The position numbers and the translations under genes are program-made. The notes under the pieces are model-generated. The model saw nothing but the letters and a program-made list of their open reading frames with translations, was not told where the DNA came from and searched no databases. Shown here piece after piece: positions 3,243 to 30,650 of a stretch of DNA of 64,000 nucleotides (position 1 is the stretch's first letter; every line of letters begins with the position of its first letter). Source of the DNA: Nitrosopumilus sp. (GTDB lineage: Archaea > Thermoproteota > Nitrososphaeria > Nitrososphaerales > Nitrosopumilaceae); contig NZ_JAILWC010000002.1 in assembly GCF_025699125.1 (NCBI RefSeq), positions 248,001 through 312,000 of the forward strand. Reading direction: 5' to 3'.

Positions 3243-4087
3243 ATATCATCTTTTTCTTGTGAAATCTTTTTTTCATCATCAGTGATCAGAATCTCTTGTA
3301 GTTTTTCACCCTGTCTAAGACCTATTACTTTGTAATTTTTAGAAATTTTTAGTGCTAAATCTTTAATATTAAATAAGTTCATTTTTGGGACAAAAATTTC
3401 TCCACGATTAACTTTTGTTATGCATTTAAAAATAAATTCTACAGCTTCTTCCATGTGAAAAAAATATCGATTCATTTTAGGATCAGTGATTGTTAAAGAT
3501 TGATTATTCTCAACCTGTTCTTTCCAAACTTCAAAAACATTTCCTCGTGTTTCAATAATATTTCCTAAACGAACTGTAGCAAATTTTGTAGTGAGGATGT
3601 GAGGTCCAGCCCAGTTTGTCAAACGTTCTCCTAATTGTTTTGTATTTCCATATAGTGTTGAAGACTCAGCAACCTTATCGGTGCTTATGTTGATAAATAT
3701 TTTGGGTTTGTTTTTTATAACAGATTTGATCATATTGATAGTTCCATTAACATTGACATCAATGGTATCAATAGGATTGTATTCAGTGATTTCAATATTT
3801 TTTAGCGCTGCAGTATGAATTACAACATCTACACCAAATCCTGCTAATTCAATTCTGTCTTTATCAAGAATTGTTCCCAATAGGAATCTTACTCTAGGAT
3901 CAGTTAAAGAACGCTTTAGTTTGAATAATGCATGCTCATTATTGTCAAAAACCCGAATTGATTTTACAGGATAATTTAGTAATTCTTTGGCTATTGCAGA
4001 ACCCAGACTCCCAGCACCACCAGTAATCAAAACTACCTTATTTTTGAGTAATTTTGAAAGTTGTGTTTTATTTACAGTTTTTTTCAT
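3218..4087 (-). CDS. UDP-HexNAc 4,6-dehydratase-like protein (LegB/PseB/CapD family)
   Basis: 289-residue polysaccharide-biosynthesis dehydratase. Seen are the NAD loop TGGAGSLGSA, the HTAALK segment typical of the FlaA1/CapD/PseB family, ISTDK followed by YGNTK with the catalytic tyrosine and lysine, and DPKMNRYFF. The family makes UDP-4-keto-6-deoxy-HexNAc, the first step toward legionaminic or pseudaminic acid. It is the first gene of the minus-strand operon with NeuB and NeuC. A clearly related but distinct homologue with more canonical PseB motifs is at 28409-29404. No aminotransferase is next to this copy. Confidence 0.82.
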   Translation of the reverse strand: MKKTVNKTQLSKLLKNKVVLITGGAGSLGSAIAKELLNYPVKSIRVFDNNEHALFKLKRSLTDPRVRFLLGTILDKDRIELAGFGVDVVIHTAALKNIEITEYNPIDTIDVNVNGTINMIKSVIKNKPKIFINISTDKVAESSTLYGNTKQLGERLTNWAGPHILTTKFATVRLGNIIETRGNVFEVWKEQVENNQSLTITDPKMNRYFFHMEEAVEFIFKCITKVNRGEIFVPKMNLFNIKDLALKISKNYKVIGLRQGEKLQEILITDDEKKISQEKDDMWIIQNYH

Positions 4088-5238: not shown

Positions 5239-7074
5239 ATGGAATATAAAATCGGAGATGCAAATATTCTTGAAAAATTACCTGTTGCAATTGAAATCGA
5301 TGGAAGACCATATATTTTATCAAAGAAAGATAATTCTTTACCTATTTTATTTAGTGCGATATGTCCACATCAAAGCGGAATTGTTTCAGAATTAAAAAAA
5401 GAAGTGTTAAGATGTCCTAATCATGGATGGGAATATGATCCTTGTAATGGGAAAGCAACAAATGTTCCAGATAAATGTCTACAAACTTTTCAAGTAAAAA
5501 TTGAAAATGATGAGCTTTATGTGAATTTACCTTTCAATAAAACAAACAAAAGAATATTTGATAATGGTCCAAAAATTCCTCCTAAAATTACCATTGTAGG
5601 AGCTGCAGGTTTATTATTTGAATGGAATGGATTCAATATTTTATCAGATCCTTGGATTGAGGGTCCATGTATGCTTGGAGGATGGACAAATTATCCACCA
5701 CCAGGAATCAAAGTGGGAGACTTGCCTAAAATAGATGTTATTTGGATTTCTCATGAGCATTCTGACCATTATCATGAACCAACGCTTTCACAATTGGATA
5801 AAAACATTCCAGTTTATGTTACAAAATTTGATGATGGTAGATTAGCTAAACGTATACAAAAATTAGGATTCACAAATGTCATACAAATCAAGACAGGTGA
5901 ACCAATTAAAATTACAAACGAAATTGAGTTGATTTCATTTAAATCTGGAAGTATATGGAATGATAGTATTTCATATTGGAAATTTGGAAATTTTACAATT
6001 CTAAATTGTAATGACGCAGGATTTAATTGGAAAATAAAAGATACAGTAGGTGAGGTAGACTTAGTTTGTCAACAATTTACAGGTCCTACTAGTAGTTATC
6101 CAGTAGCATGGAATCATTTAGACAATAAACAAAAAAATCAGATTTTGATTAGACAAAATAATGGAATGTTAAAAATGATGGAAAATGTCGCAGAAGTATG
6201 TAATGCAAAATACATATTGCCATTTGCAAATTTTTTTGAGCTTGGAAATCCTGAACATCTAAAATATATGAAAATTCAAAGAAAAAATTCGTTAGAAGCA
6301 GTTGTGAAATTTTTTAAAAATAAGAATGTCAAAGTATTAGATTTGATACCAGGTGAGTCTTGGGATGGAATTACTGGAAAAATGATTAGGCGTCCAGAAC
6401 GTGAAAAATTCTTTAATGAAGAGTTTATGTTCAAATATTTACATGATACTTGTGAATTAGAGAGAGAATTTGGATATAAGCCAACAAAATTTGACATGAC
6501 GCATGATGATATAAAAAAATATTTTGAACTATTTAGTGGTTCAAAATTAGCTAAAGATGTAGGAACATATTCAGTTTCATTTACAATTGAAAATGAAAAA
6601 CCACTTCATGGATTAATTTCTTTTAAAGATGGAAATGTAAACTATGAATCTATTTTAGAACCTAAAGATGCAGATATGCAAATGTCATGCCCAGGAGGAA
6701 TCGTACAAGAAGTAATAAAAAAGGATTTGTCATGGGATGAAGCATTTAATGGATTTTGGTGTACATTTTCTAGAAAACCAGACGTATACAATATTCACTT
6801 TTGGAAATTATTGTATGCACCTTGGAGAGCTAGGCCAGATTATGTTGAACAAAAGGATCTAGAATTTTCCAAAACAGTAACAGATATGTCAATAGCAGAC
6901 ATTATTGAAAAAGGTGGATTAACTGCAACAAAAATTTTTGAAAAATATGGATTATTCTGTACAGGATGTCAACCTGGAATGGGTGAAAGTGTTGAAGAGG
7001 GATGTAAATTACACGGTATTTCAGATAAAAAAACAAGAGAATTAGTTGATGAATTAAACTTATTAGAAATTTAA
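5239..7074 (+). CDS. Rieske + metallo-beta-lactamase-fold protein resembling CMP-sialic acid hydroxylase (CMAH), with C-terminal DUF1858
   Basis: 611 residues. Residues 1-105 form a Rieske domain with the full [2Fe-2S] ligand set: C42-P-H44 and C59-P-N-H62. Residues about 120-380 are a metallo-beta-lactamase-like fold with H172-E-H174-S-D176-H177 and a later aspartate (D259) in LNCNDAG. Residues about 400-540 form an extra domain that looks SCP2-like to me (weak). Residues about 545-611 are a DUF1858-type module with FCTGC, as found next to redox clusters. Rieske plus MBL-like fold is the architecture of vertebrate CMAH, which hydroxylates CMP-Neu5Ac to CMP-Neu5Gc. The gene converges on and overlaps by 4 bases a CMP-nonulosonate synthetase, which supports a CMP-nonulosonate substrate. 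The activity is inferred; another Rieske oxygenase role is possible. Confidence 0.75.
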   Translation: MEYKIGDANILEKLPVAIEIDGRPYILSKKDNSLPILFSAICPHQSGIVSELKKEVLRCPNHGWEYDPCNGKATNVPDKCLQTFQVKIENDELYVNLPFNKTNKRIFDNGPKIPPKITIVGAAGLLFEWNGFNILSDPWIEGPCMLGGWTNYPPPGIKVGDLPKIDVIWISHEHSDHYHEPTLSQLDKNIPVYVTKFDDGRLAKRIQKLGFTNVIQIKTGEPIKITNEIELISFKSGSIWNDSISYWKFGNFTILNCNDAGFNWKIKDTVGEVDLVCQQFTGPTSSYPVAWNHLDNKQKNQILIRQNNGMLKMMENVAEVCNAKYILPFANFFELGNPEHLKYMKIQRKNSLEAVVKFFKNKNVKVLDLIPGESWDGITGKMIRRPEREKFFNEEFMFKYLHDTCELEREFGYKPTKFDMTHDDIKKYFELFSGSKLAKDVGTYSVSFTIENEKPLHGLISFKDGNVNYESILEPKDADMQMSCPGGIVQEVIKKDLSWDEAFNGFWCTFSRKPDVYNIHFWKLLYAPWRARPDYVEQKDLEFSKTVTDMSIADIIEKGGLTATKIFEKYGLFCTGCQPGMGESVEEGCKLHGISDKKTRELVDELNLLEI

Positions 7075-7772
7075 AATTCTTTAAACAATTTTTTTTGTAT
7101 AATCATTTCAACTGTTTTAAATTCCAATTCAGTATCTATCATAATTCCAGTTTCTGGAGGAATTTCGTAAGGAAGGATTTTTGGCAAAATAATTTTTTTA
7201 TATTTTAAAAATTTTTCGACATTAAAAGTATCCAATCCAGTCATTTGATAAATAGGAGGAGCTTCTTGCCTACTTCTAGGTCGATTTCCTTTAGTTTTGC
7301 TCAATTTTAGAAATCCATGTGAATTTAATTCAAACATATTAAAATAAGGATTAAAGTGTTGACGGTAAACTCCAAAAACTGCGTGTGGTTTTTTTTCCTC
7401 TAGTAATTTTATAGTATTTTCCATATCAATATTTCTAATGAATGGGGCGGTACAATCCCGTAAAACAAGTGTTTCAAAATCATATCCAAGCGAAAATAAC
7501 TTTTTAATTCCATGGAACAAAACCGGTGCAAATCCAATTTGGCTTGTTGCTAAATGTTTAGGACGTGAGAATGGAACCTCTGCGCCAGATTTTTTTGCAA
7601 TAGAAGCAATTTCTTTATCTTCAGTTGAAACAAAAACATGACTAAATAATTTTGATTTTAAGGCAGATTGTATAGTATATGCAATCAGAGGTTTACCTGC
7701 AATTTTTCGTATATTTTTTCTTGGAACACCTTTTGAGCCACCACGAGCGCCAATAAAGCAGATAGGTTTCAT
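7071..7772 (-). CDS. neuA: Acylneuraminate cytidylyltransferase (CMP-nonulosonate synthetase, NeuA/LegF-like)
   Basis: 233 residues. The N-terminal nucleotide loop IGARGGSKGVPRKNIR and the downstream PLIAYTI and FVSTED segments are those of NeuA-type CMP-sugar synthetases. It activates the product of the NeuB reaction with CTP so that glycosyltransferases can use it. The gene converges on the CMAH-like gene with a 4-base overlap and sits 9 bases after the KpsC/S-like gene, with which it is probably cotranscribed. A second cytidylyltransferase of the different SpsF/PseF type is at 31720-32514, which suggests two separate CMP-nonulosonates. Confidence 0.92.
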   Translation of the reverse strand: MKPICFIGARGGSKGVPRKNIRKIAGKPLIAYTIQSALKSKLFSHVFVSTEDKEIASIAKKSGAEVPFSRPKHLATSQIGFAPVLFHGIKKLFSLGYDFETLVLRDCTAPFIRNIDMENTIKLLEEKKPHAVFGVYRQHFNPYFNMFELNSHGFLKLSKTKGNRPRSRQEAPPIYQMTGLDTFNVEKFLKYKKIILPKILPYEIPPETGIMIDTELEFKTVEMIIQKKLFKEF

Positions 7773-10594: not shown

Positions 10595-12227
10595 AAATTC
10601 AAATCAAATAATTTCACGATTCGAAATAATTGACAAGAAAGTTTCATTGATAACGAAGAGTCCAATACTTTTTTTAATTGGGATTGGAGTAATTGGGTTT
10701 TTTGTTAGAACCTATTATTTTCCTTGGGACATTCCCATTATTCTAGATGGATTAGATTATTTGTCATATGCAGTAGTTATGAGTCAAGAAGGGCATTTCC
10801 CCACAGGATGGGATTTGAGTAATAATGGTTGGCCTTCTTTTTTGTCAATATTCTTTACAATTTCAAATAATGACGGATTGATAGAGTTTAGCCATATTCA
10901 ACGGATGTTGACAGTTATAATTTCGGTATTAACTGTAATTCCAGTATATCTATTATGTGCTAGATTTGTTGCTAAAACTTCTGCACTTATTGGTGCAACT
11001 CTATTTGTGATGGATCCTAGGATAATCATCAATTCATTGTTAGGAATTACTGAGACAAGTTTTGTATTTGTTGGTGCTATTGCATTGTTCTTATTTTCAA
11101 GTAAAGATGTGAAAGTAGTATCAGCATCGTTTGGAATTTTAGCACTGTTCACCATGATACGATATGAAGGAATAATTTTGTTAATACCATTTTTAGTACT
11201 TTATATTATTAGATTTAGGCATCAAAAAAAGTTTTTTTTAAAGTTGTTAGGAGTTATAGGAATATTTATTTTAATTTTATTACCTATGGCATATTTTCGA
11301 ATTCAAGCAACAGGTAATGATGGAATAATCAGTGAAATATCACAAGGAGGAGCAAACTATCTTTCAAAACACATTGTTCAGGGAATTCCTGATAAAGATG
11401 ATCCAATATATGGACCAGATTCTATAGAGGAAAATAAAATTTTTCAGTTCATTACACTTGGTTCTACAAATTTAATAAAATATCTTGGATGGGTGATGAT
11501 ACCAATTTTTATATTTTTTGTACCAATTGGTTTTTTCATATTTTTACAAAATCGTGATGAGAAAACAAAAATTATGATTCTAAGTGGAATTTTTCTTCTT
11601 ATTCCTGCATTTTATGCATATGGGAGAGGGATTGAAGAAACACGATATCTGTATGTATTATTTCCAATTTTTTGCGTTTTTTCATCATTTACAATAATGA
11701 GATTTGAAAATAAAATTCAAAAAAAAGGAATATTCATATTATTTCTGATATGTGGAATTTTTATTGGTTCTGTTACATACCTTGAATACAAAAAGATCGA
11801 TTATGTTCATGAGGTTGAAGCTTTTTCTATCGCTAAGGAGATAGTTAAGATTGCAAGTGGAGTAAACCATTTTCCACCAGAGAGCACATACATACATGTA
11901 GCCGAAGTTGCAAAGAAATGGCCAGACATTCCATTACCAGATGAAACAGGCTATAATCAACTATTTGAAATTAAAAAAATTTCCCCAGAAAATTATTTTT
12001 TATTAAGTGAATTCATAAAAGACTCAAAGGAGAAAGGACTGACTCACATAGTTGTTGATGGAAATGAAAGAAAATCAAAATTTCTTAATGAGATTTTTTT
12101 CAACGATGAAAATTATCCATATTTAATAAAGGAATTTGATTCGATAGAAAAGGATTACAAATACCATGTAAAAATCTATAAAATAGACTATGAAAAGTTT
12201 GAAGAGTTTTTAAAAAATAATCCTTAA
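10587..12227 (+). CDS. GT39/ArnT-like membrane glycosyltransferase
   Basis: 546 residues from the ATG at 10587, which is preceded by a GGAG ribosome-binding site; an upstream ATG at 10512 would overlap the flippase by 83 bases and has no such site. About 10 membrane helices are visible. The first loop after helix 1 carries two aspartates (DGLDYLSYA), as in the catalytic loop of protein-mannosyltransferase/ArnT-like enzymes (GT-C fold). A soluble extracytoplasmic tail of about 130 residues follows. Such enzymes use polyprenyl-phosphate sugars on the outer face. The acceptor is unknown; it follows the flippase in one operon. Confidence 0.7.
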   Translation: MAKNSNQIISRFEIIDKKVSLITKSPILFLIGIGVIGFFVRTYYFPWDIPIILDGLDYLSYAVVMSQEGHFPTGWDLSNNGWPSFLSIFFTISNNDGLIEFSHIQRMLTVIISVLTVIPVYLLCARFVAKTSALIGATLFVMDPRIIINSLLGITETSFVFVGAIALFLFSSKDVKVVSASFGILALFTMIRYEGIILLIPFLVLYIIRFRHQKKFFLKLLGVIGIFILILLPMAYFRIQATGNDGIISEISQGGANYLSKHIVQGIPDKDDPIYGPDSIEENKIFQFITLGSTNLIKYLGWVMIPIFIFFVPIGFFIFLQNRDEKTKIMILSGIFLLIPAFYAYGRGIEETRYLYVLFPIFCVFSSFTIMRFENKIQKKGIFILFLICGIFIGSVTYLEYKKIDYVHEVEAFSIAKEIVKIASGVNHFPPESTYIHVAEVAKKWPDIPLPDETGYNQLFEIKKISPENYFLLSEFIKDSKEKGLTHIVVDGNERKSKFLNEIFFNDENYPYLIKEFDSIEKDYKYHVKIYKIDYEKFEEFLKNNP

Positions 12228-12593
12228 TCATGTTATATTGGATAATTTCTCAGAAATGACAAAACCGATAGCATATTTGTTATCATGACTTATAGAGCCC
12301 AAAACTTTGTATTTTTTATTCCAATCTTTTAGTAGTTTGATTTTTAATTTTGATTTTGAATGATATGTTTCAATATCAAGAAAGGATATTGGTTCTTTAA
12401 TTGATTTTTTTAGTGCTTCTTTAATTGCAAATTTTCCTGCAAAGTGTTCAGCAGAATTTTTGTATTTCAAGCAATATTTAATTTCAGAGGGAAGAAAAAG
12501 TTTTTTATAAAAACTTGGTTTTTTTAAATAAGAGATTTTTTCAAATTTTTCTATATCAACTATGTCTATTCCTATGCCGAAATTTTCAATCAT
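12228..12593 (-). CDS. acpS: Holo-ACP synthase (4'-phosphopantetheinyl transferase, AcpS type)
   Basis: 121 residues from the ATG at 12593; a longer reading to 12659 adds residues that overlap the MaoC gene and do not match the family. It has the two hallmark motifs: GIGIDIVDIEKF (Mg-binding D10) and FAGKFAIKEALKKS (E59). AcpS transfers the phosphopantetheine arm of CoA to a serine of an acyl carrier protein. The matching ACP gene is two genes upstream. Dedicated AcpS proteins are uncommon in archaea. It ends directly against the stop of the GT39-like gene on the other strand. Confidence 0.9.
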   Translation of the reverse strand: MIENFGIGIDIVDIEKFEKISYLKKPSFYKKLFLPSEIKYCLKYKNSAEHFAGKFAIKEALKKSIKEPISFLDIETYHSKSKLKIKLLKDWNKKYKVLGSISHDNKYAIGFVISEKLSNIT

Positions 12594-12616
12594 GTTAATT
12601 TCATCAAAAACAGATT

Positions 12617-13045
12617 TTATTCTCGTACAATAACTTTTGCCACACCATCTACTATGCATTTTCCAGTTTGATTATGAATAATTGTTTTCATAGTAATTAA
12701 TTTAATACTAGATTTTTTTTCAATGATTTCTCCTTCTATAGTTACTTCATCATCAATAAAACATGGATTTCTAAAATTCAATGTTTGTGAGAAATACAAT
12801 GAATTTTTACCTGGCAAATTCATGCCTACAAGTTGTGAAAAAAACGAGGCTAAAAGCATTCCATGACATACTCTTTTCCCAAAATTTGTATTAATAGCAT
12901 ATTTTTCATTCATGTGTAAAGGATTAAAATCACCACTAATTTTTGCAAAATCATTTAACAAAGATTCATCTATTTTTTTAGAGAAACTTGTTTTTTGACC
13001 CACAAAAAGATCATCAAAACTATATTCTGCTGGAGAGTCAGTCAT
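12617..13045 (-). CDS. MaoC-like hot-dog hydratase/dehydratase
   Basis: 142 residues of the MaoC/R-hydratase family. The N-terminal SFDDLFVGQK, the catalytic stretch ISGDFNPLHMNEKYA (Asp and His) and the C-terminal strands VTIEGEIIEKKSS are visible. These proteins hydrate or dehydrate 3-hydroxyacyl thioesters on CoA or ACP. It overlaps the ACP gene by 8 bases and is followed by AcpS after 23 bases, so the substrate is probably an acyl group on that ACP. What acyl group is processed is unknown. Confidence 0.87.
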   Translation of the reverse strand: MTDSPAEYSFDDLFVGQKTSFSKKIDESLLNDFAKISGDFNPLHMNEKYAINTNFGKRVCHGMLLASFFSQLVGMNLPGKNSLYFSQTLNFRNPCFIDDEVTIEGEIIEKKSSIKLITMKTIIHNQTGKCIVDGVAKVIVRE

Positions 13046-13277
13046 CTAAAATAATCCCATGTGCCTTTAGATATTTTTTAATATCTGATACATTTTTCGT
13101 TTCAGTTACTTCATCAATTGTAAATTCAGTTTTAAATTCTGATTCTAATTCATCTAATAAAATATAGGAATTAAAAGAATCCCAACTAGAAATTGTTTCA
13201 GGACTAGAATTATCATTAATTTCATTTATTGGTACGTCCATTACTTTTGCAATTATTCCATAAAGTTTTTCAGACAT
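13038..13277 (-). CDS. Acyl carrier protein
   Basis: 79 residues, acidic, with the four-helix ACP pattern and the phosphopantetheine attachment serine S34 in SWDSFNS (canonical DSL becomes DSF). Its ATG overlaps the FkbH stop by one base, and its 3' end overlaps MaoC. The family carries acyl chains as thioesters. Archaea generally do without ACP-dependent fatty acid synthesis, so a carrier in a glycan locus with its own AcpS most likely serves sugar acylation. Confidence 0.88.
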   Translation of the reverse strand: MSEKLYGIIAKVMDVPINEINDNSSPETISSWDSFNSYILLDELESEFKTEFTIDEVTETKNVSDIKKYLKAHGIILDD

Positions 13278-15043
13278 TATTTTTCTTCGATTTTAATAAA
13301 ATCAGGAATTTGAAATGTTTCATTTATAGAAATTATCCAAGAATCACCTTCTTTTTTAAATCCACAGTCAGGTAGGAAATTTTCAATTGGTTTATTCTTT
13401 TGTGTCGGAATAAAATCTGCTTTGATTTTCTCTACACCATGTTCTTTGGCTGTTTTGATAATATGACCTAATATGCTTTTTTCAACTTCACGGCCCATAA
13501 CTCTACAGCTCAAAAGAAAAGTATCAAGAACCCAATGTTTTGTTCCATTTTTTTGAACAATAAATGCTCCTGTTATTCCATTATCACCAAATTTATCTTC
13601 AACCTGTGCACATCCTATCAAAAAATTTTCATCTTGAGAAAATTTTTGAATGTCTTCTAACTGATATCTTTTTGTAGTTAGATTAAATTGATTAGTTTTA
13701 AGAATTAGCTGAGAAATTCTAGGGATAGTGAAATCGTCAGCTTTTTTTATAGTAACTTTGAGTTCCATATTTTTAAGAAAGTCTTGTAGATTTAATGATG
13801 ATTTTTCCAAGTCTTTTCTTTCTTTTTGTTGTGAGTACATCAAACCTCTTTTTTTATCTTCATCAGTAATTTTGAGTACATTAAATTCATTCATTTCTTC
13901 TAAAACGTGAGTGTATTTTGAGGGATCTTTAGGAAGATCAACAGTAAGAACCTGAGGTAGGCTTGATTTCATAAATTCTCTATGAATGGGATCGTCATCA
14001 ATAAATACAAAATTTTCAAGACCAAAATTTAGATCCTCTGAAATTTCTTTCATGTTTGATACTTTATCATTCCAATTTATTTTCATACATGCAAAATGTT
14101 CTTTTCTAAGTACCATATCTGGATGATTTTCAATAACTTCAAGTGCATCATTTGGATTATTTTTACTATTAATGGCAAGTAAGATTCCACGATTATGTAA
14201 TCCCAATAGGTATTTTTGAAATTCAACAAATGCATTTCCAGGAGGTCCAGATCCCAATTTGATTCCATCAAAACCATCCTCGCCAATAATTCCACCCCAT
14301 AACGTATTATCCAAGTCTAAAACAATGCATCGTTTTGACAAACCTAAAGTTGCGACAACATATCCAATTAAGTCATTTGTCAAATGAGGAATATAATCTA
14401 GAGAAATTTTAATGTCTCCAAAAAGATATTGTTTGGGATCAAATACATTATTTTCTCCATGTCTAGTGACAAATCCATTCATATCAAACAAATAGGCAGA
14501 ATCTAAATTTGAAATAAAGTCTTGCAAATTTTCATTTAACTTTATAATCATTTTTTGAAGACTAAAATCAGATTTTGTTTCACAAATTCCATAATTGGAT
14601 CTTGCAGGAATGGTAAAATTTGAAATGATGAATTTAGATTTTGATTTTTTTGTAAATACTTGAATTAAATTTTTTATCTCTTCATATTTTTTTTGGACGA
14701 ATTCTTTTCTTTGTTTTACATCAATTGAATATGGAGAATACCAAAAATCTCCCAATAGACTTCTGGTATCTAAAATTAGAAATACAATGTCAGGATCAAA
14801 TTGATAAAGATTACTTTCAGGATTTAGTATTTCTTGATGGTATTGATTATAACTACCCAAATAAGTTTCACAGTTAATTTTTTTTTCAGTGCATTTTACC
14901 TTAAAAGTTTCTTCAATACCATTTAAGGTAAAACTAGATAAAATTGCAATTCTAATGTTTTTTTCAAAGTTTTTTTCCAATAGTTTGCTTTTTGTCAGAT
15001 AATAGGATAATTTATTTTCATTAACCATGTTAGGACATTTCAA
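13277..15043 (-). CDS. FkbH-like HAD protein (glyceryl-ACP-forming type)
   Basis: 588 residues in three parts: an N-terminal SGNH-like region (about 30-235), a HAD-IIIC phosphatase domain starting at VLDLDNTLWGG (nucleophile D243, acid D245) with SKNNPND and VFIDDDPIHRE, and a GNAT-like C-terminal domain (about 410-575). FkbH proteins take 1,3-bisphosphoglycerate, remove phosphate and load glyceryl onto an ACP. The ACP, a MaoC and AcpS follow in overlapping order. Starts at 15043 (MKCPN) or 15028 (MVNEN) are both possible. The product here could be glyceryl or a derivative; this is inferred from the family. Confidence 0.88.
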   Translation of the reverse strand: MKCPNMVNENKLSYYLTKSKLLEKNFEKNIRIAILSSFTLNGIEETFKVKCTEKKINCETYLGSYNQYHQEILNPESNLYQFDPDIVFLILDTRSLLGDFWYSPYSIDVKQRKEFVQKKYEEIKNLIQVFTKKSKSKFIISNFTIPARSNYGICETKSDFSLQKMIIKLNENLQDFISNLDSAYLFDMNGFVTRHGENNVFDPKQYLFGDIKISLDYIPHLTNDLIGYVVATLGLSKRCIVLDLDNTLWGGIIGEDGFDGIKLGSGPPGNAFVEFQKYLLGLHNRGILLAINSKNNPNDALEVIENHPDMVLRKEHFACMKINWNDKVSNMKEISEDLNFGLENFVFIDDDPIHREFMKSSLPQVLTVDLPKDPSKYTHVLEEMNEFNVLKITDEDKKRGLMYSQQKERKDLEKSSLNLQDFLKNMELKVTIKKADDFTIPRISQLILKTNQFNLTTKRYQLEDIQKFSQDENFLIGCAQVEDKFGDNGITGAFIVQKNGTKHWVLDTFLLSCRVMGREVEKSILGHIIKTAKEHGVEKIKADFIPTQKNKPIENFLPDCGFKKEGDSWIISINETFQIPDFIKIEEK

Positions 15044-15132
15044 TTTTTAGTATTTGTTGTTTATGATTGAGTATTCAGTAATTATAATCAGATAAGTTTA
15101 GATTTAAAATTAAGCTTGAATAGAATAAGCAT

Positions 15133-15663
15133 ATGGATGATGAGAATCCTACTTCAGTAAATGAGAAGGAATTAATGGAATATTACGGATATACTGGAAC
15201 TTTTGGTAATTTCAGAATGAAGATGAAATTTCTTCATTCATGGATTTTGCACTCTATTGCATATTCGTGTCCACATTCAGAAACCACAGCTAAAATTCAA
15301 CGATTACGTGGAGTCAAAATTGGTAAAAATTGCCATTTTTCAGCATATGTCCAATTAGATTTGATTTATCCACATTTAGTTAGCATAGGAGATAATGTTA
15401 CATTTGGTTCAAATGTAATAGTTTTTGCTCATACAAATCCAGCAGCGAATTTATTTTTAAAAAATGGCGAATTTCCAAGAAAAGTTGCAGAAGTAAAAAT
15501 AAAGAATGGTGCAGTGTTGTTTCCAGGTTCAATAGTTACAGCAGGAGTAACCATAGGAGAAAATAGTGTCATATCAGTAGGTAGTGTAGTAACTAGTGAT
15601 GTGCCAGATTATTGTGTTGTAGTTGGAAATCCAGGAAGAGTCATAAAGAAAATCGATCATTGA
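15133..15663 (+). CDS. Hexapeptide-repeat (left-handed beta-helix) acyltransferase
   Basis: 176 residues. Isoleucine-patch hexapeptide repeats begin at about residue 62 (VKIGKNCHFS, VSIGDNVTFG) and end with the classic tail VTIGENSVISVGSVVTSDVPDY...GNPGRVIKK. A histidine in the FAHTN loop is a likely catalytic base. The gene diverges from the FkbH-ACP-MaoC-AcpS operon across a gap of about 90 bases, so it is the best candidate for moving the ACP-bound acyl group onto a sugar. It could instead use acetyl-CoA. Confidence 0.85.
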   Translation: MDDENPTSVNEKELMEYYGYTGTFGNFRMKMKFLHSWILHSIAYSCPHSETTAKIQRLRGVKIGKNCHFSAYVQLDLIYPHLVSIGDNVTFGSNVIVFAHTNPAANLFLKNGEFPRKVAEVKIKNGAVLFPGSIVTAGVTIGENSVISVGSVVTSDVPDYCVVVGNPGRVIKKIDH

Positions 15664-15686
15664 ATCAGACAGTAAAATTAAGAGAA

Positions 15687-16049
15687 TTATTTTATCAGAT
15701 CTTCAACAATTTTTCTGTATTTGGGATAAACAGTATCTTCATAATTTTCAAAGACTTCAAAAAATAATGAATCTTCTTTTGCAATTAGTAAATGTGCTAC
15801 ATTAGATTGTACATAAATAATACTAGGAGAAGAAATGATTGAGATTTTTTCTTTTCCTGTTTTTATATTTTCTTCACGATATTCAATTTTGCCTGAGATC
15901 AAAAAATGACTTGTATCGGTTTGATGAAAATGTCCACCTCTTGCAAAACCTTTCTTAATTTCAATTAGATTAATTTTTTTATGATCATACTTTAGAAATA
16001 AGATTTTTCCTCGTTTATCTTCAATTTGTGTGTCAAACTCTAGGCTCAA
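15687..16049 (-). CDS. Cupin-domain protein (WxcM/FdtA-like)
   Basis: 120 residues forming one cupin barrel. The GGHFHQTDTSHFLISGKIEY motif contains the metal or substrate histidines, and NVAHLL is the second motif. It resembles sugar-nucleotide ketoisomerase or WxcM C-terminal domains in glycan loci. No reaction can be assigned with confidence. It converges on the acyltransferase and is upstream-spaced by 32 bases from the sulfotransferase on the same strand. Confidence 0.7.
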   Translation of the reverse strand: MSLEFDTQIEDKRGKILFLKYDHKKINLIEIKKGFARGGHFHQTDTSHFLISGKIEYREENIKTGKEKISIISSPSIIYVQSNVAHLLIAKEDSLFFEVFENYEDTVYPKYRKIVEDLIK

Positions 16050-16081
16050 ATCTATTTGATTAATAATAATTCTTATTAAAA

Positions 16082-16948
16082 TTATTTATCCCAATCAAAT
16101 TCTCGTCCTATCATGCTAAATAATTCAGCATTAGGTTTTTTATAAAAGTCTATTAAAAACTTCCTTGTTTCACTTTTCATCTTAGGATAAGAAGCCACTT
16201 TATGTTTTTCCGGATTTACAACATGGTTTTTTGGGATTTGTAAGAAATCAAAAATTTTGTCTAATGTTTCTTGAGGTTTAGATTCAAAATCTTCTGTTGA
16301 AATAATGAATAATTGTTCATTATTGAACAATTCCAACCAGATTTTTAGTTGATTTGCATAAAGCCCCTTTACAATGTATGATCTAGGAGTAGTATACTTT
16401 TCCAGTTCATTTTCAGATTCAATCTTATTATTCAAACGATTTAATTCAACTTGAATTGCATCCTCAAATGATAAATTTTCAGATCCTGCTCTAACACCTA
16501 AATGGTAATTCGAATATGCCCTATCTATAGGATTTCGAAAGAGAACTATTAATTTTACATTTGGGAGAATTTTTAGAATTCGTTTTGCTACAGTTGGACT
16601 CCATATGTAAAAAGGAGTATCTTCACCAGTAATTGCAAACTTTTTGTTGTGTTTTACTATCCACTTTGAGAATAATGTTGGAAATAACGAACGATACCAG
16701 TTTAATCCCAGATGAAAATTACTATCAAAAAAACCTAATTCATCATATGCTGCAGGAAGCACACATGGATGTTGGCAAATATTATAGTATAATGAAGTTG
16801 TTCCACTTCTAGCTGTACCAATAATTATAAAATCAGGCAGTGATCTGAGAGGCCCACTAATCGCAAAAATGTGTCGTTTAACAAATTGGTAGTAAAATCG
16901 CTGAAAAACCCTATGAATTTTTGGATATTTTTTGAGCCAATTTTTCAT
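16082..16948 (-). CDS. PAPS-dependent sulfotransferase
   Basis: 288 residues. The 5'-phosphosulfate loop is IIIGTARSGTTSLYYN (around residues 41-56), and the 3'-phosphate-binding motif is LFRNPIDRAYSNYHLG, as in heparan-sulfate-type and cytosolic sulfotransferases. A hydroxyl of a carbohydrate is the probable acceptor, so the surface glycan is likely sulfated. An N-terminal basic, aromatic segment (about 1-35) could associate with the membrane, but no clear helix is seen. It follows the CgeB-like gene by 12 bases in the same orientation. Confidence 0.88.
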   Translation of the reverse strand: MKNWLKKYPKIHRVFQRFYYQFVKRHIFAISGPLRSLPDFIIIGTARSGTTSLYYNICQHPCVLPAAYDELGFFDSNFHLGLNWYRSLFPTLFSKWIVKHNKKFAITGEDTPFYIWSPTVAKRILKILPNVKLIVLFRNPIDRAYSNYHLGVRAGSENLSFEDAIQVELNRLNNKIESENELEKYTTPRSYIVKGLYANQLKIWLELFNNEQLFIISTEDFESKPQETLDKIFDFLQIPKNHVVNPEKHKVASYPKMKSETRKFLIDFYKKPNAELFSMIGREFDWDK

Positions 16949-16960
16949 AAAAACTTCACT

Positions 16961-17842
16961 TTACACCAAATTTTCGATCAAATTAACCAATGAACATACG
17001 GCGTTGTCATTGTTAAAATTTTCAAGTGCAAATTTCCTTCCATCATTAGCAATTTTTTCCCATTTGGAATTATCTAAATCAGATAAATAATCTTCAAACT
17101 TTTGTTGATAATTGGCTTCATTAATAAAAATGGCAGTTTCACCATCTACAAATCCAAGTAAATTTGCTCGATTTTTCTTAGTGACTTCCATGAATGTCAA
17201 ACATCCTGCTGCAGGAATTTCCCAGAATTTTATAACAGGCTGATATGTACAGGCTGCAATTGCAGCTGCATATTTTTGAAGGAGTAGAGGATATTTATCA
17301 TTAACAAATTCATGGTTGAGTGTTGATGTATAATCAACATATGGAAGATTTGTACATATTGTTCTAAGATAATATTGTTCTAGGGCATTCCATTTTGGAT
17401 TTTTTACTTTGTTTATCAATTGGGAAAAAAATTTCATATTTCCAATATTTCCAGAGTTTAAGATTTTATTTTTTATTCTTTTTTTAAACGGGGTTAGATT
17501 TTGATATAATGAGGGTTCAATTCCTATGAAAATTGTTTTGTAATTAAAATTTTTTGGATAGAGTTCATGAAAATAATCACTTGGATTAAAATGAAAATAA
17601 TAATCAATCTTCCATTTTTTATGAAATGGTATAGATTTTTTTGCTTGTGCTGCATCGGCAGCTTTTGCAATGATTGGAATATCTAAATCTTCAATATTGT
17701 GAATTTCTTCAGGCATTCCATAAGTATTATTTTCCCACAGTAAAATAGCATCAAATTTATTTTTCAGTTGTTTGGCATCAAAAGATTTCTCGGTAGGAAA
17801 ATATGTCACCATTAATGATTCATTTCTTTTTAACGCATTCAT
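16961..17842 (-). CDS. CgeB-like glycosyltransferase, main reading frame (5' part frameshifted)
   Basis: 293 residues are open from the first ATG of this frame. The C-terminal part matches CgeB/GT1-like transferases: KFWEIPAAGCLTFMEV followed by GFVDGETAIFI, where the sugar nucleotide binds, and a final KFALENFNN helix. The reading frame seems to have lost its start. Upstream of the ATG it still reads GKHYDNVYYHFF in natural protein style, but a TGA follows further upstream, while the neighbouring frame supplies the missing N-terminus (see 17839-17967). The intact protein would be about 334 residues. Whether this is a real mutation or a base-call error is unknown. Confidence 0.7.
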   Translation of the reverse strand: MNALKRNESLMVTYFPTEKSFDAKQLKNKFDAILLWENNTYGMPEEIHNIEDLDIPIIAKAADAAQAKKSIPFHKKWKIDYYFHFNPSDYFHELYPKNFNYKTIFIGIEPSLYQNLTPFKKRIKNKILNSGNIGNMKFFSQLINKVKNPKWNALEQYYLRTICTNLPYVDYTSTLNHEFVNDKYPLLLQKYAAAIAACTYQPVIKFWEIPAAGCLTFMEVTKKNRANLLGFVDGETAIFINEANYQQKFEDYLSDLDNSKWEKIANDGRKFALENFNNDNAVCSLVNLIENLV

Positions 17843-17967
17843 AAAAAAATGATAGTATACATTGTCGTAATGTTTTCCAGACAGATAAATATTTGATTTT
17901 TCATAAATAAATGCAATCTTATATTTTTTTGAAATTTTTAATCACCAACAATTACAACGTATAACAT
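17839..17967 (-). pseudogene. Out-of-frame N-terminal piece of the CgeB-like glycosyltransferase
   Basis: A 42-codon frame starts at an ATG at 17965-17967, only 14 bases after the rmlA stop, and encodes KYKIAFIYEKSNIYLS, a normal first beta strand and loop for a GT-B enzyme. It then derails and stops at 17839. The continuation SGKHYDNVYYHFF is in the other frame. The junction is the short repeat ccagagacag near 17877-17886; one AG fewer restores a single frame. This indicates a 2-base insertion (or equivalent). Confidence 0.6.
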
Positions 17968-17981
17968 ATTTTAAAAATCAA

Positions 17982-19046
17982 TTACAGAGAAATTTTTGTT
18001 CCTTCTCCAAGTAAGAATATCTTTTCATCTTGATCAGTTTTTTTAGAGATATTTGAATTTGATGAGATAATACTATTTTTGATTTTTATACTACAATCAA
18101 TTTCACAGTTTTCCATTATAATAGAATTTTTAATTTTACAATGGGATAATTTTGAATTATCACCAATACTGGTGTTTGGGCCAACACACACATCATCATT
18201 AATTATACAGTTTTTCCCAATAATTACAGGTCCCATTATTTTGGAATTGTTTTTAATTAACGTACCTTCTCCAATCATCACATTACCTTCAATAATAATA
18301 TCATCATCTTTGGTTCCATAAAAATAAGGTTTCATATTTTCAAGAATAGTTTTATTTGCTTGTAGAATATCTTCTGGAGTTCCAGTATCTTTCCAAAAAT
18401 CAGTAATAACATAGTATCTCACTTTTTTATTAATATCCAATAACATTTGAAGAGCATCAACAATTTCAAATTCATTTCTCCAAGAAGGTTTTAGCTTGTC
18501 TATAAGATCAAAAATTATCGGAGTTAGAAAATAAATTCCAGTAACTGCTAAATTAGATGGAGGGTTTTTAGGCTTTTCAATTAATTTGATTATTTTCTTA
18601 TTTTTTATTTCTGCAATTCCAAATTGGGAGGGGTTGTTAACTTCACATAATAAAATAGATGCAGCATCATCAGAATTTACAAAATCGCTTACATAATCTT
18701 GAATATTTTTTTGAATTATATTGTCACCTAAAAAAACAACAAATTTTTCATTATCAATAAAATCTTTGCAAAGTCTTACGGCATGTGCAATACCTTTTGG
18801 AGAATCTTGTTCAATGTAAGATAATTTTACTCCAAAATCTTTGCCATCACCGTAATATTCTTGGACTTTATTTGAGCCAATTCCACCAATTATTATGGCA
18901 ATATCTGTAATTCCAGCAGTTCTCAAAGATTCTAAACAGTATTCTGACATGGGTTTGTTTGCTATTGGTAAAAGTTGTTTTGGTCCGGTATGGGTTAAAG
19001 GACGTAATCTAGTTCCATGTCCCCCATGTAAAATAATTCCTTTCAT
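17982..19046 (-). CDS. rmlA: Glucose-1-phosphate thymidylyltransferase, long form (RmlA)
   Basis: 354 residues. The nucleotidyltransferase signature GGHGTRLRPLTHTGPKQLLP is near residues 8-27, followed by VFLGDN and FWKDTGTPEDIL. A C-terminal left-handed beta-helix (about 245-335, repeats such as IGEGTLIKNN and VCVGPNTSIGDNS) marks the long archaeal/actinobacterial RmlA type. It makes dTDP-glucose (possibly UDP-glucose), the first step of dTDP-rhamnose. It lies downstream of rmlC and rmlB on the minus strand, with rmlD divergent at 20751. Confidence 0.9.
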   Translation of the reverse strand: MKGIILHGGHGTRLRPLTHTGPKQLLPIANKPMSEYCLESLRTAGITDIAIIIGGIGSNKVQEYYGDGKDFGVKLSYIEQDSPKGIAHAVRLCKDFIDNEKFVVFLGDNIIQKNIQDYVSDFVNSDDAASILLCEVNNPSQFGIAEIKNKKIIKLIEKPKNPPSNLAVTGIYFLTPIIFDLIDKLKPSWRNEFEIVDALQMLLDINKKVRYYVITDFWKDTGTPEDILQANKTILENMKPYFYGTKDDDIIIEGNVMIGEGTLIKNNSKIMGPVIIGKNCIINDDVCVGPNTSIGDNSKLSHCKIKNSIIMENCEIDCSIKIKNSIISSNSNISKKTDQDEKIFLLGEGTKISL

Positions 19047-19095
19047 TTTTTTAAAATGGTTTTATCTATAATTAAATTCATCTTTGATTATTTTG

Positions 19096-20097
19096 TTATT
19101 TATCCCAATTTAATGTCCAAGGTTGTGGATGAAGTGTTTTTTCATCAACTAATGGTTCCCACCATTGCTTGTTTTGAATATACCAATTAACAGTTTCTTG
19201 TAATGCAATATCAAAATCATATTTTGGAGCCCAATTAATTTCATTCTTAATTTTTGAAGAATCAACGGAATAATGTTTATCATGTCCAGGTCTATCAGGC
19301 ACAAATTCAATTAGATCATGAGGCTTATTCAATAGATTGAGAATTTTTTCTACAATATTTTTATTAGAAATTTCATTCCATGCTGTAATATTGTAAATTT
19401 CGCCTGACCGACCTTTTGAAATTAAAGCATCTACTGCTTCCACATGATCAAAAACATAAATCCAACTTCTAATTTGATTTCCATCACCATAAAGGGGAAC
19501 TTTAAGATTTTTCAATGCACGTATTATTGTTTTTGGGATAAGTTTTTCGGGGAACTGATTTGGGCCAAAATTATTAGTGCATCTTGTAATAATACAATCT
19601 ATTCCATAAGTTCTTCTATATGCACCTACAAGTAAATCCGCTGCAGCTTTAGTTGCTGAATATGGATTACTGGGTTTTAGAATATCATCTTCATTAAAAG
19701 ACGTTTTATTTTCCAAATCACCATATATTTCATCAGTGGAGATATGAACAAATAATTTATCGTGTTTCCTTGAAGATTCTAAAAGTGAATATGTACCTAG
19801 AATATTTGTTTCAATGAACGGTTTTGGATTTGCAATGCTTCTATCCACATGTGTTTCAGCTGCAAAATTAATTATCACATCAACATCTTTGGAAATTTTT
19901 TCAATTTCTGTAACATTTTGCATATTCTCTTCAAAGAAGGAATAATTTGGATTATTGATTTCAGATAAATTAAGTTTGTTTGAACCTATTGTCAGATTAT
20001 CTATATTGATAATAGTATCTTCTGGAAATTTTTTTAGATGATTTTTGATAAACGTGCTTCCAATGAAACCATAGCCACCACATACAAGAAATTTCAT
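19096..20097 (-). CDS. rmlB: dTDP-glucose 4,6-dehydratase (RmlB)
   Basis: 333 residues. NAD loop GGYGFIGS, FAAETHVDRSI, the active-site HISTDEIYG with YSATKAAAD (Tyr and Lys), CTNNFGP and the C-terminal region with PDRPGHD are all characteristic of RmlB. It converts dTDP-glucose to dTDP-4-keto-6-deoxyglucose. Its start overlaps the stop of the RmlC-like gene by 4 bases, and rmlA follows 49 bases downstream, so the three are one unit. Confidence 0.95.
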   Translation of the reverse strand: MKFLVCGGYGFIGSTFIKNHLKKFPEDTIINIDNLTIGSNKLNLSEINNPNYSFFEENMQNVTEIEKISKDVDVIINFAAETHVDRSIANPKPFIETNILGTYSLLESSRKHDKLFVHISTDEIYGDLENKTSFNEDDILKPSNPYSATKAAADLLVGAYRRTYGIDCIITRCTNNFGPNQFPEKLIPKTIIRALKNLKVPLYGDGNQIRSWIYVFDHVEAVDALISKGRSGEIYNITAWNEISNKNIVEKILNLLNKPHDLIEFVPDRPGHDKHYSVDSSKIKNEINWAPKYDFDIALQETVNWYIQNKQWWEPLVDEKTLHPQPWTLNWDK

Positions 20098-20606
20098 TTC
20101 TGATTCACATCATTCCAATCATAGGGGCGTTTTGTTCTAGGATCAATAATAGATGGATCATTCCAAAGAAGTCTTTCCTCATCAGGATTTTCATAATCGT
20201 ATAAATTATTTATAAAATAAACCGTGTAAGAGGGCTGATTACCAATAGTTTTGGTCCCATGCCAAAAATTTCCTGGAACTTTAATAATTTGTAAGTCATC
20301 TCCACTTGCAATAATTTCCACCAATTTTCCAAAAGTTTTTGATTCTTCATTGTTATCATATACACAGATCTTCATAGAACCTTTCAAAACAGTAAAAAAA
20401 TCCACTTGATTTCTTTTATGCCTATGCCAAGCACGAATAACTCCAGGATTACTTTTTGAGATGTTAATTTGATTGGGCTTGTCTTGTCCAAAAAACCCAT
20501 TCCAATCATTTCTAAAGATTTCAGTAACAAAACCACGTTCATCATTATTTATTTTAGGAAATAAAACTTGTACTCCGAGATCATAACTCTTAATTTCTAA
20601 ATCCAT
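20094..20606 (-). CDS. RmlC-like dTDP-4-dehydrorhamnose 3,5-epimerase family cupin
   Basis: 170 residues of the RmlC fold, with NDERGFVTEIFR at the start and VIRAWHRHKRNQVDFFTVLKG where normal RmlC has a G-L-H-Y/F-Q segment. The WHRH variant and shortened length show it belongs to a divergent RmlC subfamily. Position between rmlB and divergent rmlD argues that it supplies the 3,5-epimerase step, but loss of the usual active-site context leaves open that it only does 3-epimerisation or a structural role. Confidence 0.75.
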   Translation of the reverse strand: MDLEIKSYDLGVQVLFPKINNDERGFVTEIFRNDWNGFFGQDKPNQINISKSNPGVIRAWHRHKRNQVDFFTVLKGSMKICVYDNNEESKTFGKLVEIIASGDDLQIIKVPGNFWHGTKTIGNQPSYTVYFINNLYDYENPDEERLLWNDPSIIDPRTKRPYDWNDVNQK

Positions 20607-20750: not shown

Positions 20751-21692
20751 ATGAGTAAAAAAAGAATGCTAGTAGTAGGTGGAAGTAGTTTATTGGGATA
20801 TAAATTATTGGCAAACGCAAGTGATTTTGAACTTTTTTCTACATATGATAAAAATTTGATTTTTTCTAAAAATGCCGAACTCATAAAAATGAATATTGTT
20901 GATCAAGTAGATTGTCAAAAAATTCTTGAAATAAAGCCAGATATTATTGTAAATGTTGCTGCTATGACAAATGTTGATTATTGTGAACAATTCAGAAATG
21001 AAGCACATAATGTTAATGTTATGGGAACAAAAAATCTTGCAAAAATTGCACAAAATTTAGGATGTAAATTTATTCATATTTCTACGGATGCAGTTTTTTC
21101 TGGAGAGAAAAATCATTTTGTTGAAGAAGACAAGCCTAATCCCATAAACGTCTATGGTAAAACAAAGTTAGAAAGTGAAAAAATTGCGTCTAAAGTTACA
21201 AATTATTTAATATTACGTCCCAGTGTTTTGTTTGGTTGGATTCCTTTAAAAAATCTCCAAGTAAGAGATAATTCTGTAAAGAAAATGAATTTTGCGTTAT
21301 GGGTTTTAAAAAAATTAAATGAAAAACAAAAATTATCAATAGTAGATGATCAATTCAGCACACCTACTTTGGCAGACAATTTATCAGAAAACATTGTAAA
21401 AATGACAAAAAAAGATATGCAAGGAATTTTTCATGCATCAGGTCTGTCTTGTATTAATAGATTAGATTTTTCTAAAAAAATAGCAAAAAAATTTGGATAT
21501 TCAGATAATTTAATCACTCCTTGTTCTTCAATAGAATTAAAACAGATTGCTAAACGATCTCTAAAATCATGTTTGAACTGTGATAAAATAGTCAGAAATG
21601 GAATGAATCTTTTGGAAATAGATCAAGCAATAGAGATAATGTACACTCAGATAAAAAAAGAAGAGCCAGAACTTATAGATGTGACATCATAA
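20751..21692 (+). CDS. rmlD: dTDP-4-dehydrorhamnose reductase (RmlD)
   Basis: 313 residues. The NADPH loop VVGGSSLLGYKL, NVAAMTNVDYCE, HISTDAVFSGE, YGKTKLESE (catalytic Tyr/Lys) and DDQFSTPTLADNL are RmlD hallmarks. It completes dTDP-L-rhamnose. It diverges from rmlCBA across 144 bases and is followed 22 bases later by a GT2 glycosyltransferase, which suggests the rhamnose is used at once. Confidence 0.92.
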   Translation: MSKKRMLVVGGSSLLGYKLLANASDFELFSTYDKNLIFSKNAELIKMNIVDQVDCQKILEIKPDIIVNVAAMTNVDYCEQFRNEAHNVNVMGTKNLAKIAQNLGCKFIHISTDAVFSGEKNHFVEEDKPNPINVYGKTKLESEKIASKVTNYLILRPSVLFGWIPLKNLQVRDNSVKKMNFALWVLKKLNEKQKLSIVDDQFSTPTLADNLSENIVKMTKKDMQGIFHASGLSCINRLDFSKKIAKKFGYSDNLITPCSSIELKQIAKRSLKSCLNCDKIVRNGMNLLEIDQAIEIMYTQIKKEEPELIDVTS

Positions 21693-22816: not shown

Positions 22817-24058
22817 ATGAGAAAATATCATAAAAAAAATGAATGTAGAATTTGTTCTAGTCAGGATCTAAAATTGATATTAGATCTAGGTAAACAACCT
22901 CTAGCAAATGCTTTCATAAAAAAAGAAAATTTACAAAAATATGAGAATAAATTTCCTCTAAGATTATACTTGTGTAAAAATTGTTTTCTTCTACAGTTAT
23001 TAGATATTGTAGATAAAGAATTTTTATTTAAAGAATATCTATATTTGACGAGTGCAAGTAAGCCAATTCTAAATCACTTTCAAAAATATGCATCTGAAAT
23101 TTATAATGAATTTTTAAAAGAAATTAAAAAGCCGTTTGTGATAGAAATTGGTAGTAATGATGGATCATTATTAAAAGAATTCAAAAAATTAGGAACAGAT
23201 GTTTTAGGAATAGAACCCGCTAAAAATATTGCAAAAATGGCAAATGATATTGGAATTCCAACAAAAAGTAATTTTTTAAACCAGAATATTATAAAAAAAA
23301 ATTCTTTGGAGAAGAAAGCATCGATTGTAGTTGCTAATAATGTATTTGGACATATTGAAGATTTGAAAGAATTTATGAAATGTATAAAACTTTTATTAAA
23401 AAATAAAGGAATTTTTGTATTTGAAGTACCATATCTAATTGATTTAATTCAAAAATTAGAATTTGATACAGTGTATCATGAACATTTATCATATTTTTCA
23501 TTAAGACCATTAATGAAATTAATGAATGAATTTAATTTAGAAATATTTGATGTAAAAAAACAAAAAGTTCATGGAGGCACTATACGAGTATTTGTAGCTG
23601 AAAAAGATAATTTTGAAATTACAAAAGATTTGAAAGAATTAATTAAATATGAAGAAAAATTTGGAATTTATAAAATTAAAACATATGAAAAATTTTCAGA
23701 TAATGTTAAACAATTAAGGAGTGAACTGCAAGATAAATTATCAAAATTTAAGAAAGAAGGTAAAATAATTTTTGGGTATGGTGCTCCAGCAAAAGGAAAT
23801 GTATTACTAAATTATTGTAAAATTGGAACACAATTCTTAGATTATATTTTAGATACAACACCACTAAAACATGGATTATACACTCCAGGAATGCACATAC
23901 AAGTAAGATCAGATATCACACACCAAGAATTATCATCACAACAAATTGCGTTGTTATTAGCATGGAATTATGAAGAAGAAATAATAAAAAAAGAAAATGA
24001 ATTTATGAAAAAAGGAGGAAAATTTTTAGTGCCTATTCCAATACCCAGACTAATTTGA
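22817..24058 (+). CDS. Sugar C-methyltransferase (Methyltransf_13/14 type)
   Basis: 413 residues in three parts: an N-terminal zinc-binding module with CRIC near residue 10 and CKNC near residue 56, a SAM-binding core with VIEIGSNDGSLL, and a C-terminal domain with FGYGAPAKGNVLLNY that is typical of the NovU/TylC3 family. HGGTIRVF is also characteristic. The family C-methylates nucleotide-linked 4-keto-6-deoxy sugars, consistent with the rmlA/rmlB product nearby. It suggests a branched deoxysugar, though this is inferred. Confidence 0.88.
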   Translation: MRKYHKKNECRICSSQDLKLILDLGKQPLANAFIKKENLQKYENKFPLRLYLCKNCFLLQLLDIVDKEFLFKEYLYLTSASKPILNHFQKYASEIYNEFLKEIKKPFVIEIGSNDGSLLKEFKKLGTDVLGIEPAKNIAKMANDIGIPTKSNFLNQNIIKKNSLEKKASIVVANNVFGHIEDLKEFMKCIKLLLKNKGIFVFEVPYLIDLIQKLEFDTVYHEHLSYFSLRPLMKLMNEFNLEIFDVKKQKVHGGTIRVFVAEKDNFEITKDLKELIKYEEKFGIYKIKTYEKFSDNVKQLRSELQDKLSKFKKEGKIIFGYGAPAKGNVLLNYCKIGTQFLDYILDTTPLKHGLYTPGMHIQVRSDITHQELSSQQIALLLAWNYEEEIIKKENEFMKKGGKFLVPIPIPRLI

Positions 24059-28346: not shown

Positions 28347-28408
28347 TAACATATTTAATTTTTTTAGATAAGCAAAGCTTTTTAGAATTAGTTAGAAGAG
28401 AATCCATC

Positions 28409-29404: not shown

Positions 29405-29432
29405 GATAAAGAAATAATACGTAAAGAATAAT

Positions 29433-29852: not shown

Positions 29853-29912
29853 TAGAATTAATTTAATCGAAACTTTAAAACAGTTAAATTTTTCCTTATG
29901 TGTGTTAAATAA

Positions 29913-30644: not shown

Positions 30645-30650
30645 TTAAAA

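Follow-up and report, generated by a model that had tools for sequence, protein, structure and literature searches.

What an acyl carrier protein (ACP) does in an archaeon is the question raised by a small operon in a 64,000-nucleotide stretch of DNA from Nitrosopumilus sp. (contig NZ_JAILWC010000002.1, positions 248,001 to 312,000; hereafter, the window), part of a Nitrosopumilaceae genome of 1.85 Mb and 99.98% completeness. ACPs are usually denied in archaea (PMC6138646, PMC10332631), and a review published in 2012 mentioned a few sporadic cases, acquired by gene transfer (PMC3533463). In the window, a minus-strand operon encodes, in this order, a FkbH protein, an ACP, a MaoC-type protein and an AcpS-type phosphopantetheinyl transferase (PPTase), and the gene of a hexapeptide acyltransferase diverges from it on the plus strand. 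On balance, and judging from sequence comparisons, we favour the view that a three-carbon (C3) acyl group is assembled by this cassette on a carrier dedicated to the purpose and then passed to a sugar in a cell-surface glycan. Every enzymatic step, the identity of the acyl group and the acceptor are what we infer here.

A preliminary description of this DNA had named the same five genes, and all of them were confirmed, with family matches above the Pfam or NCBIfam cut-offs used for assignment. FkbH (13277..15043, minus strand) consists of an FkbH_N domain (PF21211, 74 bits), a HAD-IIIC phosphatase domain and a GNAT-like C-terminal domain, matches TIGR01686 (310.9 bits, cut-off 146.65) and is the predicted glyceryl loader; an ATG at 15028 may replace the TTG at 15043 as its start. 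The stand-alone ACP (13038..13277, minus strand; PF00550, 24.9 bits, cut-off 20.8) has its attachment residue, Ser34, within a WDSF sequence, and this serine is invariant in the 20 relatives aligned. The MaoC protein (12617..13045, minus strand; PF01575, 63.8 bits, cut-off 27) is a dehydratase of the MaoC/R-hydratase fold, resembling PhaJ (1IQ6; phmmer E 1.8e-28), and presumably takes a carrier-bound acyl substrate. AcpS (12228..12593, minus strand; PF01648, 42 bits, cut-off 25) also matches the PPTase superfamily model TIGR00556 and scores 58.3 bits against the TIGR00516 equivalog, below its cut-off of 59.8, so the assignment is at superfamily level. It has the features of group I PPTases (an ACPS domain, about 120 aa, and catalytic Asp, Glu and Lys residues), and D32, E81, K85 and H125 are conserved in 29 relatives. 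A divergent intergenic region (15044..15132) separates FkbH from the acyltransferase (15133..15663, plus strand; PF00132 and PF14602), a left-handed beta-helix (hexapeptide) protein predicted to use acyl-ACP. The operon genes had been described as overlapping; this holds for FkbH/ACP (TAATG) and ACP/MaoC (ATGACTGA), but not for AcpS/MaoC. The AcpS open reading frame, which reaches 12659, is over-called, and with the probable, conserved start at Met23 (12593) there is no overlap with MaoC. The gene order is conserved in about 25 loci from several genera, most of them with the divergent layout, and, compared with the nearest relative, each of the five genes has a Ka/Ks (0.04–0.24) indicative of purifying selection. 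The gene set therefore goes beyond chance.

The proposal that the ACP module is self-contained, has an AcpS of its own and belongs to a glycan locus is supported. In the whole genome, the single PF00550 match and the single PF01648 match both lie at this locus. That an ACP is unexpected in archaea needs some tempering, since archaeal ACP and AcpS proteins of sporadic occurrence were described as early as 2012 (PMC3533463), and the phylum has further ACP/AcpS systems.

The residues expected of the loading and tailoring enzymes are present. In FkbH, the DLDNT and DDDP motifs and Cys513 are kept in all the aligned archaeal rows. The SCR of the SCRVxxR motif occurs in 32 of the 33 rows of a further FkbH alignment. 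A loss of catalytic residues, considered earlier as a possibility, is thus not seen: the HAD motifs, the invariant Cys513 and the GNAT-like C-terminal domain are all retained, and glyceryl loading can be regarded as probable. In a tree, the archaeal FkbHs cluster together, separate from the bacterial FkbHs sampled (support 81). In MaoC, D39, N41, P42 and H44 are invariant in 15 relatives, and D39 and H44 align with PhaJ 1IQ6.

In the proposed route, AcpS would place a phosphopantetheine on Ser34 of the ACP, and FkbH would strip the phosphates from D-1,3-bisphosphoglycerate and load glyceryl on the carrier. MaoC would then dehydrate glyceryl-ACP (C2-H, C3-OH) to 2-hydroxyacryloyl-ACP, giving pyruvyl-ACP, which would be reduced to lactyl-ACP where a FabG-like reductase occurs; at the window, which has no dedicated reductase, the pyruvyl group may be retained, or a general reductase may act. 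Finally, the hexapeptide acyltransferase would put the acyl group on a hydroxyl or amino group of a deoxysugar that is probably linked to dTDP or to a lipid. There are precedents for the carrier steps: in tetronate pathways, glyceryl-ACP is taken to form from 1,3-bisphosphoglycerate via FkbH (PMC7489565), and, as an experimental precedent, PMC4765723, citing He 2014, describes DH-KR proteins that turn glyceryl-S-ACP into lactyl-S-ACP in FR901464 and lankacidin biosynthesis. The path from FkbH via MaoC to the acyltransferase outlined in the preliminary description can therefore be refined to pyruvyl- or lactyl-ACP, with the reservation that the window lacks a dedicated ketoreductase, and its suggestion that MaoC makes the final group something other than plain glyceryl is supported. 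The likely product at the window would be pyruvyl, or lactyl formed by an unrelated reductase, the main rival being plain or inverted glyceryl.

Among 300 sampled Nitrososphaeria genomes, an ACPS match was found in 31, and FkbH above cut-off and a PP-binding match in 20 each, with custom profiles adding AcpS and ACP in FkbH genomes overlooked by Pfam (G034, G122). The cassette is patchy, occurring in about a tenth of the sample. The five-gene order, for which a search in other archaea had been proposed, was found there, and G122 has the same locus as the window, but the loading and tailoring genes are swapped among relatives. Besides the window-type variant (FkbH-ACP-MaoC-AcpS), there are loci in which a FabG-like short-chain dehydrogenase/reductase (SDR) joins MaoC (FkbH-ACP-MaoC-SDR-AcpS in L050, and L035), and others in which a glyoxalase/epimerase-fold protein (methylmalonyl-CoA-epimerase-like VOC) stands in place of MaoC (L033, on the same contig as L056, L034, L036, L037, L039 and L074). 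Outside the class, but within the phylum, these genes are also found with a VOC protein (L097). In L040, L042, L043 and L046, FkbH and MaoC give way to an AMP-ligase and a different ACP, and the acyltransferase is kept; L052 is also of the AMP-ligase type, but has a different hexapeptide enzyme. The acyltransferase tree implies at least four changes of donor type, which indicates that donors are swapped under one acyltransferase. Within the FkbH clade of the Nitrosopumilaceae, the loci with a reductase, L035 and L050, branch deepest, and this enzyme may therefore have been lost from window-type loci. Outside the genus, the cassette nearest to that of the window (G025, a different genus) has an acyltransferase 79% identical, against about 59% for most copies within the genus, which makes movement of the cassette between genera probable. 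A scan of viral contigs with FkbH yielded no relatives and no virus link. In one locus (L055, G074), the frames of FkbH, MaoC and AcpS are broken and the neighbouring genes are intact, which may reflect recent decay or a local assembly error.

Comparable gene sets were seen in bacteria, for which the comparison covered a plasmid collection. Subdoligranulum has a FkbH-ACP-MaoC-SDR operon (MaoC and SDR recognised by reading the sequence, and MaoC by a family match as well), Niveispirillum the order FkbH-ACP-WcbI-MaoC::SDR, and Maritalea an AAC(3)-like::FkbH fusion next to a MaoC::SDR::ACP fusion, in which the ACP end was recognised by reading the sequence. The strongest indication that MaoC and a reductase act on a carrier-bound group comes from this last fusion. 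A reductase is present in L035, L050 and the bacterial locus L082, and Glyoxalase_4 proteins are encoded at the FkbH loci of SC52 and S. meliloti.

Several observations weigh against the proposed route. The Cys of the CSKN motif of bacterial FkbH is an Asn in the archaeal FkbHs (the position is Cys, Val or Ala among bacteria), and the AlphaFold predictions for FkbH and for the acyltransferase, computed with four sequences as input, are poor (mean pLDDT, a confidence score, of 55); the better-predicted C-terminal part of FkbH weakly matches GNAT folds and the rest 3SLR, a result that bears on fold class only. The MaoC family normally takes longer acyl-CoA substrates and differs from the polyketide synthase-type dehydratase of the published case. 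No ketoreductase was found at this locus of the window, and the closest SDR encoded elsewhere in the genome is just 22% identical to the L050 enzyme. Lastly, the best matches of the acyltransferase are acetyl-CoA-dependent sugar O-acetyltransferases (maltose/galactoside), and genomes of this group commonly encode hexapeptide enzymes; the protein could thus be an ordinary enzyme of this kind, with the ACP operon serving another acceptor or a small secreted metabolite. We consider this improbable. The acyltransferase scores 58.7 bits against the galactoside O-acetyltransferase equivalog, below the cut-off of 347, and at the position of the catalytic His of LacA/Maa it has Asn102, with an invariant His100 two residues earlier. 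Its orthologues were found in 25 genomes of the class sample, every one a carrier of the cassette, and scores fall sharply from 213 bits to 85 bits (a copy broken by stops) and to 60 bits for other hexapeptide proteins. The cassette lies beside the acyltransferase in 23 of these 25 genomes, including G215, where the gene adjoins a FkbH fragment at a contig end; in G193 and G297 the acyltransferase is on separate short contigs. The loci share no other acyltransferase. This genomic association disfavours the idea, entertained in the preliminary description, of an acetylase unrelated to the ACP. H68, H100 and R116 are invariant in 24 sequences, and K117 is fixed in the 20 FkbH-type loci and absent from the four ligase-type loci, a split that is equalled by 7 of the 10,626 possible sets of four and, with relatedness not removed, is suggestive of an enzyme that tracks the type of loading. 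No column of the acyltransferase alignment separates MaoC from VOC loci.

The proposed C3 route also has to be weighed against another fate of the carrier-bound group. The product could be glyceryl itself, with the enzyme in the tailoring slot (MaoC, or the glyoxalase-fold protein of relatives) merely inverting or stabilising C2 before transfer. The replacement of MaoC by an epimerase-like VOC protein in about six loci, the Glyoxalase_4 proteins of bacterial FkbH loci, the suitability of glyceryl-ACP for C2 epimerisation and the missing reductase of the window all fit this alternative, but members of the MaoC family are hydratases or dehydratases, the catalytic Asp and His are kept, and several archaeal and bacterial loci pair an SDR with MaoC. 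We regard a glyceryl product as rather unlikely, though as the strongest competitor of pyruvyl or lactyl. MaoC and a FabG-like SDR are enzymes of the fatty-acid type, and a minimal fatty-acid or hydroxyacyl pathway, with MaoC as the dehydratase of a short ACP elongation cycle, was also considered. However, loading falls to FkbH or an AMP-ligase, the cassette loci have no gene recognisable as a ketosynthase or a malonyl loader, and a search of the genome for beta-ketoacyl synthases gave no convincing match, the best being weak and thiolase-like (E 0.01–0.02). Chain elongation is therefore unlikely, the carrier having no recognisable fatty-acid cycle to serve, and we rejected this very improbable pathway for want of a condensing enzyme. 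Least probable of all, in our judgement, is a functionless cassette, decaying or contaminating and of bacterial origin. The patchy distribution and the broken FkbH and MaoC frames of G074 might be read in this way, but the five genes are under purifying selection, G122 has the same locus, the G+C content of the cassette (0.280) is that of the surrounding island (0.283), and the archaeal FkbHs group apart from those bacterial ones that were sampled.

The cassette can be compared with several known systems. The lactyl-ACP starter modules of FR901464 and lankacidin (He 2014, reviewed in PMC4765723) carry a C3 unit on an ACP and use a dehydratase after glyceryl loading, as is predicted for the cassette, and their reductase has a counterpart in the archaeal variants L035 and L050; they differ in that the window is archaeal, has a dehydratase of the MaoC rather than the polyketide synthase type and has no reductase, and in that the archaeal acyl group is predicted to go to a sugar instead of a ketosynthase. 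Genes for a predicted glyceryl loader and a putative dehydratase with one ACP are present at the window, the latter being of another type than in the starter modules. The tetronate and methoxymalonyl systems that use glyceryl-ACP (PMC7489565) share FkbH, a stand-alone ACP and the predicted substrate, but the archaeal cassette is devoid of the polyketide synthase, dehydrogenases and FabH-like enzyme, its tailoring protein being MaoC or VOC. The bacterial FkbH-ACP loci L066, L067, L068, L069 and L082, mostly in polysaccharide regions, resemble the cassette in that FkbH and ACP adjoin acyltransferases and in their MaoC-SDR or Glyoxalase_4 tailoring. Their acyltransferases (MBOAT, WcbI, AAC(3)-like, GNAT or hexapeptide) differ from the archaeal one, there is no AcpS within the stretches read (bacteria have one of their own elsewhere) and their FkbHs are about 32% identical. 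ACP-dependent acylation of sugars is known from Nod factor (NodF/NodA) and lipid A (LpxA/LpxD) synthesis, LpxA and LpxD being hexapeptide enzymes. In these systems, as is predicted for the cassette, a carrier-bound acyl group goes to a sugar, and archaeal relatives have a polysaccharide deacetylase by the acyltransferase; the acyl groups are fatty acyls from fatty-acid synthesis, whereas the archaeal one is predicted to be a C3 unit from glycolysis/gluconeogenesis. A NodB/NodA-like exchange of acetyl for acyl through this DUF3473 deacetylase, encoded by the acyltransferase in 19 loci, was considered and rejected as a core function, since the gene is absent from the window and G122.

In most relatives, the cassette lies between GT2-RmlA-RmlB-FdtA and DegT-deacetylase genes, and the presence of FdtA and DegT suggests a dTDP-3-amino-3,6-dideoxyhexose as the acceptor. 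The neighbours in the window resemble a dTDP-rhamnose pathway: an RmlA-type glucose-1-phosphate thymidylyltransferase (17982..19046, minus strand; TIGR01208 above cut-off), which adjoins the cassette in most relatives and is a candidate for the acceptor-sugar pathway, an RmlB-type dTDP-glucose 4,6-dehydratase (19096..20097, minus strand; TIGR01181 above cut-off), an RmlC-like dTDP-sugar epimerase (20094..20606, minus strand; PF00908 above cut-off) and an RmlD-like dTDP-4-dehydrorhamnose reductase (20751..21692, plus strand; PF04321, and TIGR01214 at 206 bits, just below the cut-off of 224). A sulfotransferase (16082..16948, minus strand; PF00685), probably involved in glycan co-modification, belongs to the same block (10648–19188), most of which is conserved in G122/L072. 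This part of the window forms a glycan island rich in AT, with a G+C content of 0.283 over bases 1–46000 and 0.347 beyond. In a glycoproteomic study (PMC12153357), an N-glycan was detected in Nitrososphaera viennensis, but no definite one in Nitrosopumilus piranensis.

The component families are known; what is new is their arrangement, host, tailoring and swapping. We found no description in the literature of FkbH in archaea, of an ACP in ammonia-oxidising archaea beyond a statement that none is known, or of this non-lipid, swappable cassette. More tentatively, the sole ACP of these organisms may serve the decoration of glycans rather than lipids, in a mobile cassette that diverts 1,3-bisphosphoglycerate to the acylation of surface sugars with pyruvyl, lactyl or glyceryl, and in which the loader (FkbH or AMP-ligase) and the tailoring step (MaoC, MaoC with a reductase, or VOC epimerase) are swapped between species under a conserved acyltransferase, resulting in strain-specific surface chemistry. 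About a tenth of the sampled Nitrososphaeria would thus have a coherent, selected ACP system with a use other than fatty acids. If so, the chemistry of surface glycans would be tied to central carbon metabolism in a group of global importance, exact mass tags could be predicted for glycoproteomes, and the variation of loading and tailoring enzymes under a single acyltransferase would amount to a natural swap experiment.

Other sugar genes were noted in the window. A nonulosonic-acid-like set (1042–4087 and 7071–7772) encodes NeuC, NeuB, a PseB-like protein and a PseF-like cytidylyltransferase, and a second one (28310–32514) comprises PseB-like, GNAT, NeuB-like, PseC-like and cytidylyltransferase-like genes. 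A sugar C-methyltransferase (Methyltransf_13/14; 22817–24058) and a DUF4910/DUF2172 protein (26069–27451) are also encoded; a DUF4910 protein follows the FkbH/MaoC-SDR-ACP genes of Maritalea as well.

Further ACP systems were found in the phylum. In L091, L093 and L099, from other families, and in L038 (Nitrososphaeria, f16), AcpS is accompanied by a phosphate acetyl/butyryl transferase and acetate kinase, and the adjacent ACP was confirmed by Pfam in L093, L099 and G013/L038; an NTP_transf_4 sugar nucleotidyltransferase-like protein occurs in the first three loci and thiolase/DUF35-type genes in L038. This arrangement suggests acyl-phosphate loading of an archaeal ACP. A genome of the same genus (G075) that carries FkbH-ACP-MaoC-AcpS at another locus has consecutive genes for a DltD-like protein, an ACP, a FabG-like SDR and an MBOAT protein (L077, 7010–10732), a Dlt-like set for surface O-acylation. 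In L045 and L059 (G182 and G117), the ACPS matches adjoin very large proteins (830 and 1339 aa) that show PP-binding and, weakly, AMP-ligase similarity and may resemble nonribosomal peptide synthetases.

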